From NCBI RefSeq assembly GCF_963675165.1, contig NC_087393.1:2795502-2859501 (forward strand): DNA of 64,000 nucleotides, in the 5' to 3' direction. Positions 22,550 to 62,800 of this stretch are shown piece after piece. Numbering within the stretch: position 1 is the stretch's first letter; each line of letters opens with the position of its first letter. Made by a program: the position numbers and the translations under genes. The notes under the pieces were generated by a model. The model had not been told where the DNA came from and searched no databases. It saw only the letters and a program-made list of their open reading frames with translations. Source of the DNA: Halichondria panicea. Lineage: Eukaryota; Porifera; Demospongiae; Suberitida; Halichondriidae.

Positions 22550-25500
22550 ATGAGCAGTTCACAAATCCCTCCATGGGTTAGAAAGGCAATAGACCAACGT
22601 CTTGGTTCTCTAACAAAGAGAAAGGTACGTCGACACCTGGTAGATGTCAGTGTATATAGCTAAATTTGTTTAACATTATAATTATACTATAGCTATTATT
22701 GCAATAGTTGACAACATTAATTTTTAAATCTGCAGGTTCCTGCTGAAGCTAGTTTTGAAGGATTGAGTGGCAAAAAGAATTTATCTCATAAAGAATGGGA
22801 TGATGAGCTCAGTAGTTTCATAAGCACCCTCCTTGTTGAGCAAGAGGCTAACAAGCACCGTCCTCACAAGCAGGCTGTTACCTTTGCTCTTTCACTTTTG
22901 TCCATGTTGAAAGATCGTAAGACCAACGGCGGTAATGAATTATTGATTCATAAGCTTGTGCTTGCTCTTCTTACTCTTTCATTAACACACCCTGAAGCTA
23001 CAAATGCCCAAGGTTTCAAAGGTGTGATTCAAGAAGAAGTGCTAGATCAGTATTCGCATGATGAGTTCCTTCAGGCTTCTGGGAATAAGCTTCTTGATAT
23101 TGCTGAAGATTTGGTTCAGTTGGATCTTTCCTCCCAACCTTTCCAATTTCCTCCATTCCAAAAAGCTCTACCCTACTTTCCAAGCTATGGTTATCAGGCA
23201 ACCCTGGTATTTGCTGATGATAAGCTGGATCAAGATATCCAAAGATCTATTATTTCACTCGTGACTGAGCTCAAATGTAAGAAATTTATGCTAAATATAG
23301 ATGCTCCCTTGTATTTTTTTGCTTACAGTGCTCTGTGAAAAAATCGATCAAAGCCAAAATAGTGCATCTAAAGGAAAGCAAGCTCATTCAGGCTTCAACA
23401 TCGGATTTGATCTTGATTATTGGATTCACTGGTGTCAGCTTCTCAACAAGAAGCCTTCCACTCCTGTGGTGAATGCAGCTAAGATGATGGATTCACCTAC
23501 TGACAACTTTATGAAGAATCAGCCCAAGCTACGCTACACAAATGGTCACGTTTGGTTGTTTCTCAAAGCAGACAGTAAAGAGGACAGTGAGCAAATGTTG
23601 GCAGTGAGTTTGTATAATTTTGCATGTAAGAATTAGGATCTACATAATTATGTAAATACATCCATGACGACATGGAAAGATAACATAGTTAGTTTATAAT
23701 TGTAGTCGAGTCATGGTTTGCACCTCAAACATTCCTGATCATTGCAGATGGTCCGTGCCCATGTTAAGGGTTTTAGGAAGTCTGGCGTATCAGTTCGCCT
23801 GAAGGTAACAGCCGCCTACAAGAAAAACGAAGGGAGAATATTTGGTGGCCAGTTTCAAGATGGAGTGACCAATGCTGTTGATGCCGTGTCGATTGTGAGG
23901 TATGTACTTACCTAACCTTAACATATACAGTAAGTATAGTTATCAAATCCCTCACATGAACCAGTGTTGTATATTTCCAGAGAGGTGGTCTTGCCACCAA
24001 TTCCTTCTACTATGGATACCCCTAACCCTGAAGGAGGCTGCTTTGCTTTTGTTCAGTTCTTCAAGTTTGACAAATCGGCTTTACATGACTATTCCATCCC
24101 TATCTCTGAGAATATGATAGGTCGAGACAGCATGTACAGTGAAACTCTAGCACGACTGGATGATAGATGCCATATCAAGAGGGCCAGGTTGATCAACTCT
24201 AGAGATGGGACCAACACAGAGCTTCTTCGACAAAGTCTACCATTTGTTCCGAGTTCGGATAAAAGCGTTGATCGTGGTCCCATGTCAGAAGGGCTCTTCT
24301 TTGTTGCCTTTGGAAAATCTGCTGAGAGATTCAGTGATATCGTGCAAAATTTATTTGGTCACTCAAAAGCACTGTTCACTGAAGACTTGATGCTGACTCA
24401 TGTGCATGGAATGTAAGTAAATTGTAAATAATTATGAAGAAGTAATTAATTTTGTTCCTAGGTTTGGAAGACTGTTCTACTGCCCCAATACAGTAGAGTT
24501 GGATTCTCTCCCAAAATTCTCCGATGCTGACATTTACCCTGCCATTCCATTCTGGATGAAGTATGTGAGCAAAAACCCTGCTTTCTTCTACAACCACATT
24601 CAGTATCTACATGGGATGGCCACCAACTATGTTCATGGTGATCCTCCATCCAAGAGAATTCTCTATCTTATGAGCGCGCTGTTTGCTCGCTGGCACTCCA
24701 CATGGTAAGCGTAATGAAAATAGCCAACCTTATTAGACGTTGTATGTTGCACCTAATCAATTTTGTGCAGCACACTTTTTGTGTGCATGGTGATCAGCAT
24801 GCAGATCTGAAATGTGTATGTATACTGGTTGTGCACCATATCCTTCCAGCACACGTTTAATTTATGGAGATCAGCATATTTGCACCAAGTGGTGCACCTG
24901 TAATTTGTAATCAGCAGATCTAAAATGTGTACATACTTATTATGATTAACAGCCTTAATTTGGCATTTCGGGCATGGCTCCTATGTCAATGACGTTGCGT
25001 CCTCTAATATTGGTGGTTTAAAATAAAAATAATAATTTCTCCATTATACTGTATTCATACACTTCTGATCGACGGTACGTATCTATGTGCAGGCCGAGAT
25101 ATGCATACAACTGTTATTAACCCGAGGCCCTCCTGGCCGGGTTAAAGTATAGTCGATCTGTTTGTGTATTCTGAATATGCACTTAGTGGTATGTTTACAG
25201 CATCGATAGCAAATATAATATCAGATTTTCGAATAAAAGCTCCGTTGTCGAATAAAAGCAAAAACTAGAACTTACTATACACTAGTTATAGTCCATATGT
25301 GGCTTTGTTTCGAGCAGTTTTTGCAAAGTGTGCCTCGGAATTTGGAATGATTGTATGTGTCTATTATAAGGGACTATCAAATAAAATCTGCGAAATGTTT
25401 ATCTGCCAATCTCAAAATAATTATATGCATGGTCCTCCGAAATATGGCACTATGAATTATTATTCTGAGAAACACATTACAGAAAATATTGATTAGCTAC

Positions 25501-28500
25501 CTATAGATAAAACACCAATAATCTAGTAGCTAGCTAAAGTCTATTTAAATTGTGTTGAGTTAAGGCATACGCATTCAAAACCCGAACTTCTATCATCATC
25601 ATGCATGCATAGATTTATGCTTCTACCTCAAGATCATCAAATTTCTGTTCCCATTAAGCTCCTAGCTTTTCTAACACTTTTTGACCATTCCTGAGGCACT
25701 CGAGTACTTGAACTTATAGGCTGGGTGTAGCATAATTATATAGGCAGTTTCTTTAGAAAATTATATCATATGTTATTATTATTATAGGATTCACAAATTT
25801 GATGTTCCACGACTACCGCATTTGAGCGAATTTCTTCGTGAAGATGAGAAAGGAATCATGGATCGCCCTATTCAAGTTCGAAAGGGCTATAGCTACAAGA
25901 AGATGTTGGGAGAGGTGTTCACTAGTGACAAGTAACTATATGCAAATACTTACATGTATGACTGTTGAAGCAAAAATAATTTCTTACTTCAGGCGTGTTC
26001 CTAACTCTTCGGGAAAGATATATGGCTTTTCCGAAAACTTTGATACCTACCGGATTGATCCGAAGGTTTGTGTGCGATATCTTCTAATGTGTACATATAT
26101 ATAGGTATAAATTATATACTTACAGCAGTATTTGCATGCATGCGCATGTAGACATGCACCATAATATTATTATTACAAGTAGTCTTGAATTTATACACTG
26201 CTTTATGCATAATCGTCACAGGATCTGATTGTTGGGGTCACTGACAGACTCTCTTTTGGAAGTGGCAAAGAAGTGATGCCTTACCTCAAGGAGGGTGCTG
26301 AGATGGATCTATCCCTTGGTCTAGGTCTCACTGAGGCTGGGAACATGGGCCACATCGTTCCTGGTCATCACTACATCTTGGAGTTGGTATGGAAAATAGT
26401 TAACTTTTCCTCTGCTTGTCGTCTAAAGGTTATAGCTTAGTGTGGTATACAGTACATGCACATGTGTGTGTGTATAGTGGAACATTTCTGCGCTTTAGGG
26501 TCAACCAAACCTGCTTGTAAAATTTGCATTGTACGTACAGGGCGTGGAAGGAATGATTGAGAAGCTAAGAAAGTTAAGCAAGAACCCTAATCTTGCTGAT
26601 CAACAGCTGTTCTATGAGAGTGCCATTCATTCTTTCGAGGTAATACATGTGTTTGATATAGAAATAAGAGTGTATATATAGTTGCTATATAATCTTATAA
26701 TTATGTATGATTATAGGGTGTACAACAGTATATGTTGCGGTACAGCAACCTAGCGAGAGAAACAGGACAGAAATTACACACATCTACATCACAGGCCAGG
26801 TGGGATTCCACTGTTAGACTTAATTGTCAGTGTTCACAATTATCTCATTTCATCCAGTGATCGTAAGAATATGAGGGATATTGCCAACCGTATGGAACGT
26901 ATTGCCCATGGCCGTGACTCGAAGGATTTTTCTTTCCAGTGAGCACCAATATAAATAGGCAATCTTGTTGAATTTTAACTAACCAATAATGTTGCGTTTC
27001 ACAGTGATGCTGTGCAACTTGTGTTTTCCATGCATTGCTGCCTCCATCTTGTGGGCCAGGCTGTGTCTGTGGGCAGGCTAGACCAACTTGTTATAGCCTT
27101 TTACCGAAGAGATGTCAAAAACAAAATGCTCACCGAAGAAAAGGTTTCTTACTAGCTGATTTGCTAAATATACTGTTCCTGCATGCATCCCTATTATAGC
27201 CATTTTTGATTCTCCCATCTACAGGCACAAGAGATTATTGACGCTTTCTTCATCAAGTTCGATGAGCATGCTGTGCTAAATCGCTACAACATCCCTTATG
27301 GGCACACTACATATGGGTCTACATGTGTGACTGGCAGAGGAGGTCCTTTCCCAACTGGAGACTCTTTGAACCAATGGATTCAACAGGTTAACGGTTATAA
27401 TTGTTGTACACATGCAGATATCACATTACAGCTATTCCAAAATCCAGATAACAGTTGGCGGTTACCTAGAAGATGGTTCTGATGGTTGCAATGAAATAAC
27501 CTTGATGTGTCTGAAGGCTTGTCGTCGCCTCCCGCTTAATGCCCCTTGTGTATCTCTGCGACTTAACAGCTTAACACCCGAAGCTGTAAAGATGGAGGCA
27601 GCTAAAGCTTTGCTGAGTGGCGGAGCTCACCCAATACTCTTCCATGATGATAAAATGGTTGATGGTACGTTGTCCATGTAAGCTAGCTACATGCAGGAAC
27701 TCAGTTGCACGTTTCTTTATTATAACCATTCAGGGTTATATGAGGTGTTACGCCAGTCTTACCTGCGTTCTGGTCTCCAAGAGCCTGATGACCTGAAAGC
27801 AGTGGCCAGAGGTTATTCGTGTGATGGTTGCTATGAGCCCATGTTCACTGGAAGATCAGAGTTTAAATTTGCGTATATCGACCTATTAAGGGTATGTTTG
27901 CATGCCAACATGCAATAGCATGTATGTTCTGATGAAGAATTGATCTGACAAGTATGCACGAATCCCTACTCAGTTTATCATAATTACCCCGTGCATGTGC
28001 AACAAGGGTAGAGTGATTAGTGTGTGTGTGTCGGTATGTGTGTGTGTGTGGACACAAAAATGAACTGTTTGAGCAAACTAGACACTGTCAATGGACTTCT
28101 TTAACTGCTAATGAATGAGACAGTAGTGAAACATAATAGGTTACATGTATGCTTTAGTATAGCTGAAACTTGTAGGCGATCTTCGAAAACGACAAAAAAA
28201 CATGGTTTTCTGATCAAATTTTGCTTTATAGATCCACAATCATTCCCCATAATGAATAGGGTCATTACGATAAAAAGGTATTGTATCGTTTTAAGCTCGT
28301 TATTTTCGCGTCCTGTTACACGTGAAACGTTCACTGTATAAGCTGTTTATTGCAAAAGCCAGTGCAGCAAATCACAACTTTATCTCTGGCATCATTTAAA
28401 GCAATATTTAAAAACCGTATTACTATAGATCTAATGTTTTATGAACTCTGATTTTGCGAGTTTTGATCGTTTTGCGAAAACCTATATCGATACTTGTAGG

Positions 28501-30940
28501 ACATCACGATCCTTTCTAGAACGCAAATGTAATTAATTAGATGGCAAAGATGGATGATTTGGGTTTTTCACACGCAAAATATTCTAGCTACTGTGCTATA
28601 TAGCTTGATGTACGTATATACATGTATAGGTTCTTATATTATTGATGCCCAGTGCACTACTATAATTATGTACATTGGCAGAATACAGGAACAGTGCACT
28701 CGCTTGTATAGGGATTCATTCATGCATGTCAGGCCTCTTGCTTGGAGTCTGTTTTTTTCTGTAACTGTAATTTAGTCACCTCGATCTTCTTTACATGTAG
28801 GCTATCATCTATTCACTAAACTCTGGGGCAAACTATCAGGGTGCCGGACCACTCTTCCTTGCTGGTGGAGTATCTTCTTACAGAACTGCATTGCCAGAAG
28901 ACATCCACACTTGGGATGAATTTAAGGTAGTATACATAATTATACATGTAATACGCGCACATGTATATAAATATAATTACTCTATGAGAGTTATACTTGG
29001 GTGCATACAATTATAGTGGTTGTGGGACAGGCTATTGGCGTCCTCAAAATAATCCACTTCCCTGAGTATAGAATTATGATTTTGCTGCAGGCTATTTTCA
29101 GAATGCACCTCAAGCTGCTTGTTCAGAACCTGTACAACCTCATTTTGGGTGCATATGGGAACCCTTGGAAAATCTGTCCCTCACCATTATTGTCGTGTCT
29201 ACTGGAGGGATGTGTGGACAGTGGCACGGACATGACTAATGGTGGATCAAGGTATATGGCTGTACATGTATATTAACGTCTAATTGTGCCCTTTTAACAG
29301 TAGTACATTGCAAGTAATAGATATAGCATGAGACCGATTGTTGTATACAATATACAGGCACAAACCCGATTGAGGGTTAGCTGCCTGTATATTGCATGGG
29401 ATTCTCATGCTTCGTGTTTTATACCACAACAACCGTACCAAATTTTGCCTAGAGGCTACGTGATCATGTAATAAAAAAATTACACAGAAAGGACCAGCTG
29501 TATGAATTTTTTATATAATTATGGTTGCATCTACTAATAAATATCTCACCTACTAGATTCCATATCCTCACCCCAATGTACGTTGGGTTTGCCAACGCTA
29601 TAAACTCGCTCTACAACGTGAAGAAAATGGTGTACGATGAGAATGACGTTACCACATTGGAAGATCTCAGGATGGCTCTAATCAACAACTGGGGAGAATC
29701 GTAAAATTAATTGCATATGATGTATATAATAATTATGACATGTGCCTTATAGAACTGTGGAGCCATTCTATGATGAAATTGGTGTGGGTGTTCTGCACAG
29801 TACTATGTCAGCTGAGCGCTTCAAGGAGCTTCGTGAGCATGCTCTTTCTCTTCCTAAATTTGGAACAGACACTGCTGATGACGAGGTAAAAATGTATACT
29901 GTTAAAATGCGTAGCATGCATTTATGAAAGCCGTTCATTGCAGATCAATGATATTGCTCTATGGTTGGCAACTGAGATGAATGAAATTGCTTATGAAGCT
30001 CTCTATGAAGAAGGAAACATCTCAAAAATGTATGAGGATCTAAAAAAGAAACACAGTGTGCCTGGGAAACCTTTTCTTTTCCAAGTGAGCTAACCTCAAG
30101 AGTAAAAAAATTAGCTGGCAAATTTACCACCCATGAAAGGTTATGACAGGGAGTGGTACATTCGAGAGTTACTTCAGTGTTGGTGCTGGCTGTGCTGCTA
30201 CTCCAGATGGGCGTCTAAACGGACAGCCAACTGCTTCAGATTGTAGTCCGCAGCCATTTGCACAAGTAAATATACTCAATGTGGTTACACTGCACCTGCA
30301 TATAAATGTATTATCAATTAAGGGCGTATATATACGCCCTTGGTATTATTTATGGTGTTATTTATACTTTGGGCCGTAGCCGCAGGAGGTATACATACGG
30401 TCAAGCTAGTTGTTTGTGTGTGCATGTGTGTGTGCATTTGCACAGGCGCTTGATAATTTTTACACAAATATACAGGATCGCCCAGTGCCAACGGTGAACC
30501 CAATGGACATAGTGGATACATTGAAGCCATACAACAAACTAAACCTTGACAAGTAGGCTTTTAGATTTATATATAAAGTACAATTAATATTGTTGTATAT
30601 AGGTTAATTCCAAATGGATGTGAAGTGGATTTGACAATCTGTGAAGAGTTTCCGATTGAATCACTACTGGAGTTTATGGAAGCCTTTATCAAGGTACTAA
30701 TTAATGTTAACTGCATAGTACGTTAATAACACATACTCCATATAGAGGCAAACAGGGTCTAACCTTGTGACAGTGACCTGTGTGGACTCATCAAGCATTC
30801 AAAGGGCTGTGAACGAGCCGCAAAAGTTTGATCTGGTTAGGAATAGAATGGGAGGCTGGAGCAACTTCTTTGTGTCTATGTTTTCTGGGCACCAAAAGCA
30901 GCACGCACGTAGACCAGTGTTTGGGCCACATATGAATTAA
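22550..30940 (+). CDS. DyP-type peroxidase / glycyl radical enzyme fusion, 25 exons
   Basis: Exons: 22550-22624, 22736-23276, 23329-23603, 23748-23899, 23981-24412, 24462-24704, 25788-25931, 25993-26065, 26222-26386, 26541-26639, 26717-26799, 26858-26938, 27005-27143, 27225-27386, 27418-27664, 27734-27891, 28801-28926, 29091-29251, 29557-29700, 29753-29885, 29944-30084, 30140-30265, 30475-30551, 30603-30693, 30746-30940. All phases agree and the sum is 1420 codons plus stop. Residues 1-165 are a helical extension, about 165-510 a DyP heme-peroxidase fold, about 510-645 a linker, about 645-1260 the PFL-like barrel, and about 1260-1420 the glycyl radical domain. The barrel has C1003-Y-E1005, the Cys-x-Glu pair of dehydratase/lyase-type GREs. 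G1393 sits in R-M-G-G-W, 28 residues from the C-terminus. No transit or signal peptide is evident. The activating radical-SAM enzyme is not in this window. Substrate unknown. The intron-rich structure argues against bacterial contamination. Confidence 0.9.
22736..24560 (+). other. DyP-type peroxidase domain of the fusion (exons 2-6)
   Basis: DyP peroxidases oxidise substrates with H2O2 through a heme held by a proximal His. Residues in order: a first ferredoxin-like half starting near Y-G-Y-Q-A-T-L-V-F; the strand G-H-V-W-L-F-L-K-A-D; the distal loop Q-F-Q-D-G-V-T-N with the catalytic Asp335 (codon 23859-23861); the I-G-R block at 394-396; the proximal-His region D-R-C-H with His412 (24171-24173); and L-L-R-Q-S-L-P-F carrying Arg431 (24228-24230). 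The last block is closest to bacterial YfeX-type (class P) DyPs. The usual G-x-x-D-G has Gln in place of the first Gly, and N-P has become N-A. Asp, His and Arg are all kept, so heme binding and peroxidase activity are plausible but unproven. Confidence 0.85.
24705..25787. other. Long intron of the fusion gene
   Basis: This 1.08-kb intron contains, near 25120-25270, a fragment of the CCCGAGGC dispersed-repeat family (CCCGAGGCCC...GTATAGTC...TCGAATAAAAGC). A stretch at about 24765-24925 shares GATCAGCATGCAGATCT-like words with the sequence around the 64-bp repeat. No exon was found. Confidence 0.5.
27892..28800. other. Intron of the fusion gene after the active-site exon
   Basis: This 0.9-kb intron holds a short GT-rich microsatellite (about 28018-28050) and otherwise AT-rich sequence. 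No conserved coding or element termini recognised. Confidence 0.5.
29328..29412. repeat. Hairpin in fusion-gene intron 18
   Basis: GCATGAGA at the left pairs with TCTCATGC at the right, and CAATATACAGGCA with TGCCTGTATATTG, giving an imperfect stem of about 35 bp around a short loop. It probably is a foldback-element remnant. Confidence 0.55.
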
Positions 30941-53800: not shown

Positions 53801-56800
53801 CCGACACAATATATATTTGTAGCAATACTCACATATACAAGTCAATCCGTCTCCTTGAAATGGGGAGTTGCATTCACACACGAAGTCTTGATTGTTCGCA
53901 CTGCTTCTAGTACAGACAGCATTGACATCACAGGGATTAGAGAGACAGGGATCTGGATCTGTACACCCAATACGATGATGTAAAATCTATCTACATGTAC
54001 CATAATTCATTATACAATCATGTGTGCTAGCTGCCAATTTGCAGACGTATGTACTTTTATTCATATAGGCATTGCTCATGGGGATCTCTTTACGAGTCAA
54101 TGTCCCAATTAACTTACAGATGCAACTGAATCCATCTCCTTCATATGGATCAATGCAGGAACAATTGAACGTGGTCATGAGCAGTCCATCTCTTGCACAG
54201 TCAGCATTGGGGTCACAAGGACTACTCAGGCAGGGATCAGGCACTGCGTCAATTACATATCAGTGGACTGTGGGTATTCAATTATACGCATTAATCAACA
54301 TACCACTGCATGAGAATCCATTTCCTGTGTATTCAGGCCTACAAATACAAGTAAAGTCCCCATTGGACAAACTGAGTCTGGTACAGTCAGCATTGATATC
54401 ACAAGGGCTAGAGAGACAGGGGTTGCGATCTACACGAGGGCAAAAAACAGTAAAATGCACATCTTTTGGAATTCAAACATTGTCAACTCAACGGGCAACT
54501 GACTGCACTACAAGTGTACACAACCGCGCCACATGCACAGATATGTAATTGAGTTTAGTTTGAACTACACTTACAAGTACAACTGAATCCATCTCCTTCA
54601 TATGGAGCATTACACAAGCAATTGAACGTGTTCACGAGAAGCCCATCCCTTGTACACTCAGCATTGGGATCACAGGGACTGCTCTGACAAGGATCAGGTA
54701 CTGTGTTGGAATATCAGTGGTAGTTTCAATTCAACTGATACAATTACGTACCGCTGCATGAGAATCCACTTCCAGTGAAACCAGTCCTACAGGTACAAAC
54801 AAATTCCCCGTTGGTTACACCGTTTCGGGTGCAGTCTGCATTGACATCGCAGGGATCAGATAGACAGGGGTTTGGATCTGTGGCATATCAACAAATCGTA
54901 CTGACACAATAATTATACTATTGCAATGCTCACATGTGCAAGTCAATCCGCCTCCTTGAAATGGAGAGTTGCATTCACACACGAAGTCTTGATTGTTCGC
55001 ACTGCTTCTAGTACAGACAGCATTGACATCACAGGGATCAGAGAGACAGGGATCTGGATCTTTACACCCAATACGATAATGAAAAATCTATCTACCATAA
55101 TTCATTATACAATCATGTGTGTTAGCTGCCACGTACGTACCTTTAAAGTTTATAATTCATAGGCATTGCTCATGGGGATTGCTTTACGAGTCAATGTCCC
55201 AATTAACTTACAGATGCAACTGAATCCATCTCCTTCATATGGATAAATGCAGGAACAATTGAATGTGGTCATGAGCAGTCCATCTCTTGCACAGTCAGCA
55301 TTGGGGTCACAAGGACTACTCAGGCAGGGATCAGGCACTGCGTCAATTACAGATCAGTGGAGTGTGGGGTTTTCAATTAGACGCACATACCACTGCATGA
55401 GAATCCATCTCCGGTGTATTCAGGCCTACAAATACAAGTAAAGTCCCCATTGGACAAACTGAGTCTAGTACAGTCAGCATTGACATCACAAGGATTAGAG
55501 AGACAAGGGTTGCGATCTGTGAGGGCAGAAAATAGTAAAATGCACATCTTTCGGATGAACTAAAAGTTACTCAGCGGGCGGCAACTGACTGCACTATATA
55601 TAGAAGTCTGAGTATAGTTTGAACTACACTTACAAGTACAACTGAATCCATCTCCTTCATATGGAGCACTACACAAGCAATTGAATGTATTCACGAGAAG
55701 TCCATCCCTTGTACACTCAGCATTGGGATCACAGGGACTGCTCTGACAAGGATCAGGTACTGTGTTTGAATATCAGTGGTAGTTTTAATTCAACTAATAC
55801 AATTACGCACCGCTGCATGATAATCCACTTCCAGTGAATCCAGTTCTACAAGTACAAGCAAATTCCCCGTTGGTTACACTGTTTCGGGTGCAGTCCGCAT
55901 TGGCATCGCAGGGATCAGAAAGACAGGGGTTTGGATCTGTGGCACATCAACATATCGTATCGACACAATAATTATATTATTTGTAGCACTGCTCACATAT
56001 ACAAGTCAATCCGTCTTCTTGAAATGGGGAGTTGCATTCACACACGAAGTCTTGATTGTTCGCACTGCTTCTAGTACAGACAGCATTGACATCACAGGGA
56101 TCAGAGAGACAGGGATCTGGATCTTTACACCCAATACGATAATGAAAAATCTTTCTACCATAATTCATTATACAATCATGTGTGTTAGCTGCCACGTACG
56201 TACCTTTAAAGTTTATAATTCATAGGCATTGCTCATGGGGATTGCTTTACGAGTCAATGTCCCAATTAACTTACAGATGCAACTGAATCCATCTCCTTCA
56301 TATGGATAAATGCAGGAACAATTGAACGTGGTCATGAGCAGTCCATCTCTTGCACAGTCAGCATTGGGGTCACAAGGACTACTCAGGCAGGGATCAGGCA
56401 CTGCGTCAATTACAGATCAGTGGAGTGTGGGGTTTTCAATTAGACGCACATACCACTGCATGAGAATCCATCTCCGGTGTATTCAGGCCTACAAATACAA
56501 GTAAAGTCCCCATTGGACAAACTGAGTCTAGTACAGTCAGCATTGACATCACAAGGATTAGAGAGACAAGGGTTGCGATCTGTGAGGGCAGAAAATAGTA
56601 AAATGTACATCTTTCGGATGAACTAAAAGTTACTCAGCGGGCGGCAACTGACTGCACTATATATAGAAGTCTGAGTATAGTTTGAACTACACTTACAAGT
56701 ACAACTGAATCCATCTCCTTCATATGGAGCACTACACAAGCAATTGAATGTATTCACGAGAAGTCCATCCCTTGTACACTCAGCATTGGGATCACAGGGA

Positions 56801-59800
56801 CTGCTCTGACAAGGATCAGGTACTGTGTTTGAATATCAGTGGTAGTTTTAATTCAACTAATACAATTACGCACCGCTGCATGATAATCCACTTCCAGTGA
56901 ATCCAGTTCTACAAGTACATGCAAATTCCCCGTTGGTTACACTGTTTCGGGTGCAGTCCGCATTGGCATCGCAGGGATCAGAAAGACAGGGGTTTGGATC
57001 TGTGGCACATCAACATATCGTATCGACACAATAATTATATTACTTGTAGCACTGCTCACATATACAAGTCAATCCGTCTTCTTGAAATGGGGAGTTGCAT
57101 TCACACACGAAGTCTTGATTGTTCGCACTGCTTCTAGTACAGACAGCATTGACATCACAGGGATCAGAGAGACAGGGATCTGGATCTGTACACCCAATAC
57201 GATAATGAAAAATCGATCTACCATAATTCATTATACAATCATGTGTGCCACGTACGTACCTTTAAAGTTTATAATTCATAGGCATTGCTCATGGGGATCG
57301 CTTTACGAGTCCATGTACCAATTAACTTACAGATGCAACTGAATCCATCTCCTTCATATGGATAAATGCAGGAACAATTGAACATGGTCATGAGCAGTCC
57401 ATCTCTTGCACAGTCAGCATTGGGGTCACAAGGACTACTCAGGCAGGGATCAGGTACTATGTCAATTAGAGATCAGTAGACTGTGGTGTTTTCAATTATA
57501 CGCATTAATCAACATACCACTGCATGAGAATCCATCTCCTGTGTATTCAGGCCTACAAATACAAGTAAAGTCCCCATTGGACAAACTGAGTCTGGTACAG
57601 TCAGCATTGACATCACAAGGATTAGAGAGACAAGGGTTGCGATCTACGAGAGGGCAGAAAAAAGTATAATGTCGGATGAACTAAAAAGCTACTCAGCGGG
57701 CGGCAATGCATGACTGCACTAGAAGTCTGAGTATAGTTTGAACTACACTTACAAGTACAACTGAATCCATCTCCTTCATATGGAGCACAACACAAGCAAT
57801 TGAATGTGTTCACGAGAAGTCCATCCCTTGTACACTCAGCATTGGGATCACAGGGACTGCTCAGACAAGGATCAGGCACTGTGTTGGAATATCAGTGGTA
57901 GTTTCAATTCAACTGATACAGTTACATACGTACCGCTGCATGAGAATCCACTTCCAGTGAACCCAGTTCTACAAGTACAAGCAAATTCCCCGTTGGTTAC
58001 ACCATCTCGGGTGCACTCCGCATTGACATCGCAGGGATCAGAGAAACAGGGATCTGGATCTGTGGCACATCAACAAATAGTTTACCGACATAATGTATAT
58101 TTGTAGCAATGCTCACATATACAAGTCAATCCGTCTCCTTGAAATGGGGAGTTGCATTCACACACGAAGTCTTGATTGTTCGCACTGCTTCTAGTACAGA
58201 CAGCATTAACATCACAGGGATTAGAGAGGCAGGGATCTGGATCTGTACACCCAATACGATGATGAAACTAAATGTGCCATAATTCATTATACAATCATGT
58301 GTGCTAGCTTCCAATTTGCACACGTATGTACCTTTATTCATATAGGCATTGCTCATTGGGGATTGCTTTACGAGTCAATGTCCCAATTAACTTACAGATG
58401 CAACTGAATCCATCTCCTTCATATGGATCAATGCAGGAACAATTAAACATGTTCATGAGCAGTCCATCTCTTGCACAGTCAGCATTGGGGTCACAAGGAC
58501 TACTCAGGCAGGGATCAGGCACTGCATCAATTACAGATCAGTGGACTGTGGGGTTCTCAATTATACGCATTAATCAACATACCACTGCATGAGAATCCAT
58601 CTCCGGTGTATTCAGGCCTACAAATACAAGTAAAGTTCCCATTTGACAAACTGAGTCTGGTACAGTCAGCATTGACATCACAAGGATTAGACAGACAGGG
58701 GTTGCGATCTGTGAGTGCAGAAAATAATAAATGCACATCTTTCAGATGAACTAAAAAGCTACATTCTTCAAACATTGTCAACTCAGTGGGCAACTGACTG
58801 CACTACAAGCACATGCACACAACCCCATAGCAAATACAGCCACATCATGCGCAGATATGTATAGGCACTTACAAGTACAATTGAATCCATCTCCTTCATA
58901 TGGAGCACTACACAAGCAATTGAATGTGTTCACGAGAAGCCCATCCCTTGTACACTCAGCATTGGGATCACAGGGACTGCTCTGACAAGGATCAGGTACT
59001 GTGTTGGAATATCAGTGGTAGTTTCAATTCAACTATTACAATTACGTACCGCTGCATGAGAATCCACTTCCAATGAACCCAGTCCTACATATACAAACAA
59101 ATTCCCCGTTGGTTACACCGTTTCGGGTGCAGTCCGCATTGACATCGCAAGGATCAGATAGACAGGGGTTTGGATCTGAGGCACATCAACAAATCGCACT
59201 GACACAATAATTATACATTTAAACAATGCTCACATATACAAGTCAATCCGTCTCCTTGAAATGGGGAGGTGCATTCACACACGAAGTCTTGATTGTTCGC
59301 ACTGCTTCTAGTACAGACAGCATTGACATCACAGGGATTAGAGAGACAGGGATCTGGATCTGTACACCCAATATAATAATGAAAATCTATCTACCATAAT
59401 TCATTATACAATCATGTGTGTTAGCTGCCACGAACGTACCTTTAAAGTTTATAATTCATAGGCATTGCTCATGGGGATTGCTTTACGAGTCAATGTCCCA
59501 ATTAACTTACAGATGCAACTGAATCCATCTCCTTCATATGGATAAATGCAGGAACAATTGAACGTGGTCATGAGCAGTCCATCTCTTGCACAGTCAGCGT
59601 TGGGGTCACAAGGACTACTCAGGCAGGGATCAGGTACTGCGTCAATTACAGATTAGTGGACTGTGGTGTTTTCAATTATGCATTAATCAACATACCACTG
59701 CATGAGAATCCATCTCCTGTGTATTCAGGCCTACAAATACAAGTAAAGTCCCCATTGGACAAACTGAGTCTGGTACAGTCAGCATTGACATCACAAGGAT

Positions 59801-62800
59801 TAGAGAGACAAGGGTTGCGATCTGCGCAAGGGCAGAAAAATAATAGTAAAATTCACATTTTTTGGATGAACTAAAAAGCTATATTTTTCAAACATTACGA
59901 CTGCATTACATGTACATCCTAATAGCCACATGCGCAATTGAGTATAGGTTGAACTACACTTACAAGTACAAGTGAATCCATCTCCTTCATATGGAGCACT
60001 ACATAAGCAATTGAATGTGTTCACGAGAAGTCCATCCCTTGTACACTCAGCATTGGGATCACAGGGACTGCTCAGACAAGGATCAGGTACTGTGTTGGAA
60101 TATCAGTGGTACGTAGTTGTCATTGAAATTAATTATGTACCGCTGCATGATAATCCACTTCCAGTGAACCCAGTCCTACAAGCACAAGCAAATTCTCCGT
60201 TGGTCACACCGTCTCTGGTGCAGTCCGCATTGACATCACAGGGATCAGAGAGACAGGGGTTTGGATCTGTGGCCCAGGAAGATGATGATTGACATATTAA
60301 TTTAATCATCAACCCTTACATGTACAGTTGAATCCATCTCCTTGGAATGGAGCAATACACAAGCAATTAAATGTGTTCACGAGAAGTCCATCCCTTGTAC
60401 AATCAGCATTGGGATCACAGGGACTGCTCTGACAAGGATCAAGTACTGTGTTGGAATATGAGTGGTAGTTTCAATTCAACAAGTGTTGCAAGCTGCGCTG
60501 TGCTAATGCCTCTCGCCATGTTTTGCTTTTGCTCAAAACTATTAGACTATTAGAGTGTTATAGAATAGGTAATTATAGTTTGCTTTGTATAATAATGTTA
60601 CGTTATTATCTGATTGCTGTTGACAATGAATTCAATTCCACACAATCATTATAGGAGAGAAGCTTAGAAGCCTATCTGATGGGTTGAATGCATGATCTTC
60701 AATTTAGGATAAACTGCTTTATTGTAGACCTACAATGTAGAAGTTTAGTATTTTGCATTCCTGATGAATAATTATACACATGGTAGCAGTCTATTATGAA
60801 CTCTTGGTAGCATTGTAGTGTTTCGTAGCTTAATTGTGTTTTGTCTCAGGATCTCACACGTGGGACAGAAAAAGGGTTGTATCTGCAATAGGTTAAAGTT
60901 CGCAATGGCTGCTGCTCTCTGGCCGGCTGGCAGTACAGCTTTGCAGACTCTTGTAGCTAACAAAAAACCAGCGCGCATGCAAGGCTAACTCATAAATTGA
61001 AGAAATTTTGTGCAAACAGATGATGCTACGAAAAATTCTGAAGAGACTGCAACAGCCTTCACTATAAGTAAAATGAGCCGTGACTGAAGAACACAGCTTT
61101 AGTTTGCAAATCCACGAACGAGAACGTTGCTAGAAGCCTATAGAAGCTGTTAGTTTCTGTTGAGCAGTTACAGCTGGAATACACACAAGCAAACACAAGT
61201 CAGCTTTACCTCATCCCTCGTGCAGCTACGCCTCGAGGCTAATTACATACCGCTGCATGAGAATCCACTTCCAGTGTACCCAGTCCTACAAGTACAAGCA
61301 AATTCTCCGTTGGTAACACCGTGTCGGGTGCAGTCCGCATTGGCATCGCAGGGATCAGAGAAACAGGGATCTGGATCTGTGGCACATCAACAAATCGTAC
61401 TGACACAATATATATTTGTAGCAATGCTCACATATACAAGTCAATCCGTCTCCTTGAAATGGGGAGTTGCATTCACACATGAAGTCTTGATTATTCGCAC
61501 TGCTTCTAGTACAGACAGCATTGACATCACAAGGATTAGAGATACAGGGATCTGGATCTGTGGCACAGGAAGACGATGATTGACATATTAATTTAATCAT
61601 CGACACTTACATGTGCAGGTAAATCCATCTCCTTGAAATGGAGAGTTGCAAGTACAAGTGAATTCACTGTTCAGAGGATCACCTTGATGACAAACAGCAT
61701 TCACATCACATGGACCACTTAAACAAGGATCTGGAACTGCACGATCAAGATGGTTAAGCCAACGTAAATTATACCTCACAAACGTACGTACTTGAACACT
61801 CAAATCCAGTTCCAGTGAATCCAGATCGACATACACACATGAACACTGGACTCAAGGAACTTTCTTTTATGCAATCGGCATTTGCATCACATGGATTGGA
61901 TAAGCATGGGTCCACAACTGTAAATGAAATAGCAAATAAATGTACTGCCACTTCAGAAGTCTGTACACGTCAGAAGTCCTTACAGTAAAGTGGATTCAAA
62001 CCAGTTTACATGCTTAGTTAGGGCCGGGGACGATAACCACCCGCATTTGTACTGTTGTCTAAGGAGGATAACTGCTAATCGCAGAACTCACCTTGACAAC
62101 GGACTCCAGCGTCTTCTGAGTGCTGATTGAAGCAAATCACAATGGAGTTTTTAGGACAGTCTACCAATCTACTCTCTGTACCAGCACAGCTCACACCATC
62201 AAGGAAAATGCTTCCTGTCCCAGCACCAAAGTGCGCAGAACTGAATGCAACAGCACCTGAATAATTATAGTACTTAGAATTGATATGCAAATAACTAAAA
62301 GGACCTTCGGAATAGCTACGATCTAGAATTGATATAAATACCTGAATCAGAATACCCCAATTGTCTGCATACAACAGTTACATCAGCAGAGTCCCATGAG
62401 TCGTCACAGACAGTGCCCCATTCATTGTTTATGCAGATTTCTATTCTGCCTTCATTTGGTACACTTGCTCCATTCAATCGAATATCTCCAGTCAAGCAAG
62501 GAGCTGAAACATACTAACGTAATTTATGACTATACCTGCTATGAATACAAACCTTCACATCCAACTCCAGCATCATCACTGTGGTCACAATTATGGTCCA
62601 GAATTGGTCTGCTAGAACATTCCAAGAGCTGACTACTGCTAGAGGAGCACTGCACATCATCCATGTATATGGGACCAGTTCCCGAGCCGAAAAAGGCATT
62701 GCTGTACGGTGTTCCGGCTGCAAAATCCATAAGCAAACTCATTTTATCTCAGTTTTAATGTAATAAATACTATCTGTACATGTGCAATTACGTATGTATA

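Follow-up and report, generated by a model that had tools for sequence, protein, structure and literature searches.

Oxygen should destroy a glycyl radical, and glycyl radical enzymes (GREs), found for the most part in anaerobic bacteria, are in textbooks anaerobic enzymes depending on radical-SAM activases. How may such an enzyme be used by an animal, and what would a heme peroxidase do on the same polypeptide chain? Both questions are raised by a locus of the sponge Halichondria panicea, lying in a stretch of 64 kb (hereafter the window), where one gene on the plus strand (22550..30940) joins a DyP-type heme peroxidase to a GRE. A DyP-GRE fusion in a spliced gene amid animal genes was what the preliminary description of this DNA had claimed, and our analysis agrees with it; the same 64-kb window also has exons with SRCR and SNF2/PHD domains, so that the locus is most naturally read as animal DNA.

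The gene model

The gene consists of 25 exons and, after splicing, of 1410 codons plus a stop; the 25 exons, the 24 introns and the single frame described previously are retained, while the length given with them was 1420 codons. All introns, with sizes from 49 to 1083 bases, are GT-AG according to hand splicing and a script check. The spliced coding sequence is a single open frame, with 71 and 117 stops in the remaining two frames; the GC content is 0.446 in its exons vs 0.345 in its introns; and in the alignment to the 120 listed homologues all 24 exon junctions are free of inserted columns, the stretch over exons 6-9 being in register too. Considering these stops, the GC gap and the junctions in register, the gene looks coding. 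Moreover, the window protein keeps 140 of the 153 columns which are at least 95% conserved in the listed homologues. Its N-terminal extension, aa 1-165 (exon 1 and most of exon 2, 22550..23155, plus strand), is without a family match, and for about these residues little or no homology support was found in the alignment to the 120 listed homologues or in Pfam; the start codon is therefore uncertain.

That the model joins two adjacent genes by mistake, or comes from bacterial contamination, has in our view a negligible probability: it was built from genomic sequence alone and the poorly supported first exons would suit such an artefact, but the presence of 24 introns, the length of the contig (2.8 Mb or more), a linker conserved across exons 5-9 and relatives sharing the domain order all speak for one genuine gene. 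A scan for bacterial-type promoters and terminators gave no clear excess (34 vs 33.1; 8 vs 5.9). In the 131-Mb assembly of 39 contigs, PF02901 has three matches, all of them exons of the DyP-GRE gene, and the power of this exon-wise search is limited since the profile saw 3 of the many GRE exons of that gene. Elsewhere in the window, several long open frames with similar text (GIRETGIWI...) at 54069-61576 resemble a repeat region; two of them were scanned and gave no Pfam match.

The peroxidase half

The DyP-type heme peroxidase domain covers about aa 166-503 (23156..24495, plus strand, exons 2-6). PF20628 matches aa 333-503 in Pfam (E 2.2e-15, 57.2 bits, cut-off 20), and the NCBIfam DyP model TIGR01413 gives 91.5 bits, just below its cut-off of 100.5; the N-terminal DyP family PF04261 has no match in the window protein at E up to 1, and likewise none in the relatives P0074, P0055, P0013 and P0022. 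Among the Pfam families which had been expected, PF20628 and PF02901 are thus matched, while PF04261 and PF01228 are not.

The distal Asp, proximal His and distal Arg of DyP peroxidases are all present, and the family alignment puts them exactly at the residues proposed for them earlier, namely Asp335 (codon 23859..23861), the proximal heme ligand His412 (24171..24173) and Arg431 (24228..24230), all on the plus strand. Among the listed homologues, His412 is kept in 117/117 having a residue there, at the position of Asp335 there are 95 Asp, 17 His and 5 Glu, and Arg431 is Arg in 102; in the wider set, Asp335 is His or Glu in 43/162 rows with a residue and Arg431 is replaced by a non-Arg in 21/163. 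The near-invariant Trp379 is Lys in the window protein. The same Asp, His and distal Arg are shared with DypB and YfeX, which are matched by the relative P0074; we take these two to be class B DyPs and the three residues to be their active-site set. In comparison with them, the window DyP is fused to a GRE and its N-terminal DyP profile is unrecognised. Altogether, the DyP half has the catalytic residues of a heme peroxidase, and heme binding and peroxidase activity are predicted for it.

The glycyl radical half

Downstream of the peroxidase lies a family-specific N-terminal GRE part, aa 504-678 (24496..26320, plus strand, exons 6-9), which contains Trp569 and Trp573 and is outside the PF02901 match. 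The PF02901-like GRE core follows from aa 679 to the C-terminal radical loop (26321..30937, plus strand), with PF02901 matching aa 679-1214 at E 2.4e-91 in Pfam; the phmmer alignment to a diol dehydratase extends as far as this loop, where RMGGW is paired with RVAGY. The GRE blocks named in the preliminary description, including C-Y-E and the radical-glycine loop, are borne out: by alignment, Cys993-Tyr994-Glu995 (27829..27837, plus strand) holds the catalytic Cys and Glu within GCYEP, and R1378-N-R-M-G-G1383-W1384 (30839..30859, plus strand) is the radical loop with Gly1383 as the radical glycine.

What is new here is that the catalytic Cys993 and Glu995 and the radical Gly1383 are each conserved in 120/120 listed homologues, and so are Arg1380, Gly1382, Trp1384 and the Gly992 before Cys993. 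The wider set behaves in the same way, where Cys993 and Glu995 are found in 164/164 and Gly1383 in 163/163 rows with a residue among the 165 rows of the fused set (some duplicates, fragments and three GRE-only proteins included), and all three in 14/14 split rows. The motifs of the DyP-PFL fusion family are DGC[YF]E and RVRxGGW, the latter being RNRMGGW in the window protein, which also departs from near-invariant sites at Asp860 (Gly) and Glu1386 (Asn). Four tryptophans, Trp569, Trp885, Trp1154 and Trp1384, are invariant where present in the family rows and are all kept in the window protein; at the same places two ordinary GREs have a gap, His/Ser, Phe and Tyr, though in the ordinary GRE 2f3o the position of Trp1384 is likewise a Trp.

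It might be asked whether the GRE half is radical-less and kept as a scaffold or sensor. PF01228 (Gly_radical) has no match in the window protein at E up to 1 and is listed for 0/120 relatives, with a value of 0.091 in P0013 which is below the cut-off, and many hosts of the family are presumably aerobes; set against these points, all 120 listed homologues keep the radical-machinery residues Cys, Glu, Arg, Gly and Trp, and we regard such a role as very improbable.

Compared with known GREs, the window protein shares with the glycerol/diol dehydratase and choline TMA-lyase enzymes (PDB 1r8w, 5i2a and others) the PF02901 core, the Cys-x-Glu, the equivalent of His164 (His689) and the radical loop R-x-x-G-aromatic. 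It differs from the glycerol/diol dehydratase type in its fusion to a DyP and in PF02901 matches starting from about profile position 145. His281, Ser282 and Asp447 of glycerol dehydratase, which we take to be residues with known roles in that enzyme, correspond to Gln806, Ala807 and Lys1005 here, and on these residues a glycerol dehydratase function was rejected. Pyruvate formate-lyase (PFL) has an adjacent Cys-Cys pair; the window protein shares its PF02901 membership and has Gly992-Cys993 without such a pair. A PFL function was also rejected, as residue 992 is Gly and not Cys and the NCBIfam model pyr_form_ly_1 gives 24.8 bits vs a cut-off of 994.2. Judging by the residues compared, the substrate pocket is predicted to differ from those of both enzymes.

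Distribution and phylogeny of the family

Searching with the GRE part at E up to 0.001 yielded at least 340 proteins, with the best 8000 candidates scored. PF02901 and PF20628 occur together in 117 of the 120 listed homologues and PF02901 alone in three, so the same architecture, for which a search in other organisms had been suggested, is indeed present elsewhere: in bacteria, fungi, lancelets and shrimps. The named sources include Lewinella, Aliikangiella, Pleionea and Andreprevotia among bacteria, and Fusarium, Xylaria, Branchiostoma, Macrobrachium and Halocaridina among eukaryotes.

The preliminary description knew of no published fusion of this kind, but a fused DyP-PFL of Chaetomium, with others in prokaryotes and eukaryotes, is already in print (PMC5041501). 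That paper reports a putative PFL activase, calls the significance of the fusion elusive, and finds that expression of the fungal fusion gene rises 3-fold with H2O2 and 18.5-fold with peroxyacetic acid (PMC5041501). Our literature search, with subscription journals mostly outside it, found the fusion in no other title or abstract opening. The DyP-B::PFL of Chaetomium and other ascomycetes shares the domain order and both domains with the window protein (PMC5041501), which is 37 and 39% identical to two fungal members, from Fusarium and Paramyrothecium. In contrast to the ascomycete fusions, the window gene is interrupted by 24 introns, its product starts with an extension of about 165 residues, and its branch in the tree is long; besides, activation by a PFL activase is assumed in the ascomycete paper (PMC5041501).

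When each species was represented by one genome, scanning revealed 75 loci of the DyP-GRE family, of which 50 by hand count are end-to-end fusions, some with broken frames, and the others are split systems, truncated contigs or fragments. Many of the hosts, for example Anabaena, Massilia, Pseudomonas cichorii and Corallococcus, we take to be aerobes. In the tree, split and fused GREs form two well-supported branches, and the fungal members group with beta-proteobacteria. The animal sequences group firmly without the window protein (98/95) and weakly with it (70/80), where another tree gave an SH-aLRT of 92 for the animal grouping including it; animal monophyly with the window protein included is weakly suggested. 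Among 27 pattern stretches in viral contigs one is a family relative; L115, an IMG/VR contig filed as viral, carries a DyP-GRE relative and may be host DNA. A plasmid search gave 121 records, and the 15 listed include two family members. Moreover, one Acidobacteria MAG holds fused and split DyP-GRE in the same genome (L024 and L055).

Split systems

In the second group a DyP gene comes after an unfused GRE, and the cluster of these DyPs was found in 14 of the 75 loci (two of its members confirmed by Pfam). A whole-genome search of this group gave a result which is new here: the separate, sister-branch GRE adjoins a DyP gene of a different class in 13/13 searched genomes, with one DyP gene (E <= 0.001) beside the family GRE in each. 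In one genome (G042) there are two DyP matches inside this one gene, and in another (G048) the DyP gene adjoins a GRE fragment on a second contig. In control genomes PF20628 was found in 3/14. Split GREs of complete sequence retain the catalytic motifs; in the aligned DyPs of this group the Asp, His and Arg motifs are retained, with one row (L060) unclean around the His. The split DyP best matches EfeB/deferrochelatases, while the matches of the fused one include DypB, YfeX and encapsulin-associated DyPs; presumably the fused DyP is class B and the split one class A. That two DyP classes are tied to one GRE family points to the peroxidase function as such.

This observation bears on the possibility of a two-step enzyme, in which the DyP and the GRE act successively on one substrate or the DyP uses the GRE product. 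Consecutive steps are often marked by fused or side-by-side genes, and the DyP pairing is very regular; nevertheless two different DyP classes with one GRE family are hard to reconcile with it, and it leaves GRE activation unexplained where no activase is recognised. We consider such a two-step enzyme unlikely.

Search for an activase

For fifty of the loci, the whole bacterial genomes were searched with the profiles for PFL (PF02901) and for activases (TIGR02493 and TIGR02494). In 45 of the 50 genomes there is no PF02901 gene outside the DyP-GRE family, and the remaining five (G007, G010, G011, G021 and G034) also have classical PFL-type GREs, six in total. The two kinds are distinguished by the start of the PF02901 match, at profile position 1-7 in classical GREs and, fragments aside, 132-154 in the family. 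A new result here is that PFL-type activases above the curated cut-off occur in 5/50 genomes, exactly the five which also hold a classical GRE, and in 0/45 of those with a family GRE only (one-sided Fisher 4.7e-7); all six classical GREs have an activase 0.04 to 3.5 kb away. In G010 and G011 TIGR02493 alone is passed, and in G007 TIGR02494 alone.

Below the cut-offs the picture is broader. In the family-only genomes TIGR02494 has weak matches (E up to 0.001) in 35/45, the best with 51 bits, and TIGR02493 has matches at E <= 1e-10 in 19/45, the best with 79.8 bits and located beside NrdD; the wider profile PF13353 matches 49/50 genomes. When NrdG is called from PF13353 matches above 90 bits plus NrdD neighbours, an NrdD/NrdG pair is found in 6/45 and an orphan NrdG-like protein, on a contig other than that of the family GRE, in another 6/45. 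The orphan NrdG-like radical-SAM frames (L119-L125) are in genomes without an NrdD match. Around the 75 loci themselves (1.41 Mb), a 3-sequence activase profile has one match, in Chromobacterium alticapitis (L047:21365), where the DyP-GRE fusion is followed after a few kb by a classical PFL with its activase, and a motif scan found two other radical-SAM frames, a MoaA-like one in L006 and one of 473 residues (L062:6599) about 3 kb upstream of a split GRE and ending about 2 kb before it.

In the sponge genome no GRE activase was recognised by an exon-wise search which, as a measure of its power, saw 3 exons of the DyP-GRE gene. TIGR02493 has 0 matches there at E up to 10, and TIGR02494 two weak ones only, both in ferredoxin-like frames which by eye we take to be NDUFS8 and DPYD. 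PF04055 has 8 matches, and 7 of them look by eye like parts of five ordinary genes, presumably MOCS1, ELP3, CDK5RAP1, LIAS and CDKAL1, so that the search has some power. Altogether, some hosts own a radical-SAM protein that might help the GRE, which counts against the strongest form of our claim, and none common to all of them was found.

It could then be supposed that a radical-SAM protein missed by the profiles activates the GRE, with the DyP clearing peroxide from around its oxygen-sensitive radical. The known chemistry of DyPs and the response of the fungal transcript to peroxide agree with such a guarding role, as do the PFL activase claimed in the fungus (PMC5041501), the NrdG or NrdG-like protein of 12/45 genomes and the radical-SAM frame near the GRE in L062. 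However, neither NrdG nor an NrdG-like protein is found in 33/45 genomes, each of the six classical GREs of these 50 genomes has an activase no more than 4 kb away, and removal of peroxide would leave oxygen in place; we rate this possibility as rather unlikely.

Neighbouring genes

BLAST clusters of the genes around the 75 loci, examined by Pfam with one to three members each, reveal as recurrent neighbours a PLD-like protein (12), a HAD-like protein of 270 aa (10), DUF2608 (7) and cytidine deaminase (5). The protein of about 270 residues, which adjoins the GRE in L015, L016, L037, L042, L057, L059-L062 and L066, has the motifs DFDD...TARGH...SDDDP, from which by eye we take it to be HAD-like; the members scanned gave no Pfam match above the cut-off, and in L060 and L061 the protein carries an additional domain, glyoxalase-like in L060. 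Endonuclease_NS lies within 15 kb of the GRE in 6/50 genomes (8/52 hits), more than expected by a rough estimate, yet it is no core partner. It is seen near the GRE in L031, L041, L042, L050, L057 and L058, and the L031 protein also contains a trypsin-like domain and matches the PADLOC 'nacht' model.

A defence system was considered; neither the fusion P0074 nor one split GRE nor one split DyP has a PADLOC match, whereas among neighbours PADLOC reports a PtuA-like protein in L056, and its 'nacht' model matches two trypsin-nuclease or trypsin-PLD proteins, so that a role in defence is at most a lead. The PLD-like proteins, PF04185 phosphoesterases, 5'-nucleotidase, nucleases, cytidine deaminase and HAD-like proteins hint at phosphoester, nucleic-acid or nucleoside chemistry, and none of them is constant.

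A proposed role of the peroxidase in place of the activase

The ideas offered in the preliminary description, protection of the radical, an oxidant-linked substrate or two coupled steps, are possible; the reading most favoured by the genomic data, a DyP in place of the activase, was absent from them. We propose, at nearly an even chance, that the DyP heme peroxidase and the GRE would form one working unit in which the DyP heme replaces the radical-SAM activase. The basis is that the catalytic residues of both domains are kept, that the DyP is regularly paired with the GRE, either fused or neighbouring, and that no PFL-type activase over the curated cut-off is found where the family gene is the only PFL-like gene.

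In such a mechanism, peroxide would convert the DyP heme to Compound I, which might oxidise the GRE through a tryptophan relay or by direct contact to give a glycyl or cysteinyl radical; the path of the relay could perhaps run over Trp569, Trp885, Trp1154 and Trp1384. This step would do the job of the radical-SAM activase in classical GREs. A thiyl radical at Cys993 would then take a hydrogen atom from the substrate, with the help of Glu995 and His689. The transfer from Compound I to such a radical would be feasible in redox terms according to general knowledge. With peroxide as the oxidant, a lost radical could be formed again in the presence of air, in line with hosts which we take to be aerobes. 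The wider proposal, that the radical is driven by peroxide through a fused or adjacent heme peroxidase, and that animals and fungi may have kept in this family a GRE class working in air, we hold tentatively, with doubt somewhat ahead of belief.

Several points weigh against a peroxidase in place of the activase. An unrecognised radical-SAM enzyme could serve, the DyP residues Asp335 and Arg431 vary in the family, and the window protein departs at Asp860, Glu1386 and Trp379; the tryptophan of 2f3o argues against Trp1384 as special. The exon-wise search of the sponge genome is of limited power, and loss of a glycyl radical in oxygen would be expected. Moreover, a putative PFL activase is reported in the fungus (PMC5041501).

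The hosts of the family include cyanobacteria, myxobacteria, pseudomonads, fungi and animals, which are mostly without a recognisable activase of the radical-SAM type and regularly with a DyP. If the proposal is true, GREs as a class would no longer be strictly anaerobic nor dependent on radical-SAM activases. They would then parallel the ribonucleotide reductases, with one thiyl chemistry served by several radical sources, and a specific partner would be known for the DyPs, a family of enzymes with largely obscure natural functions.
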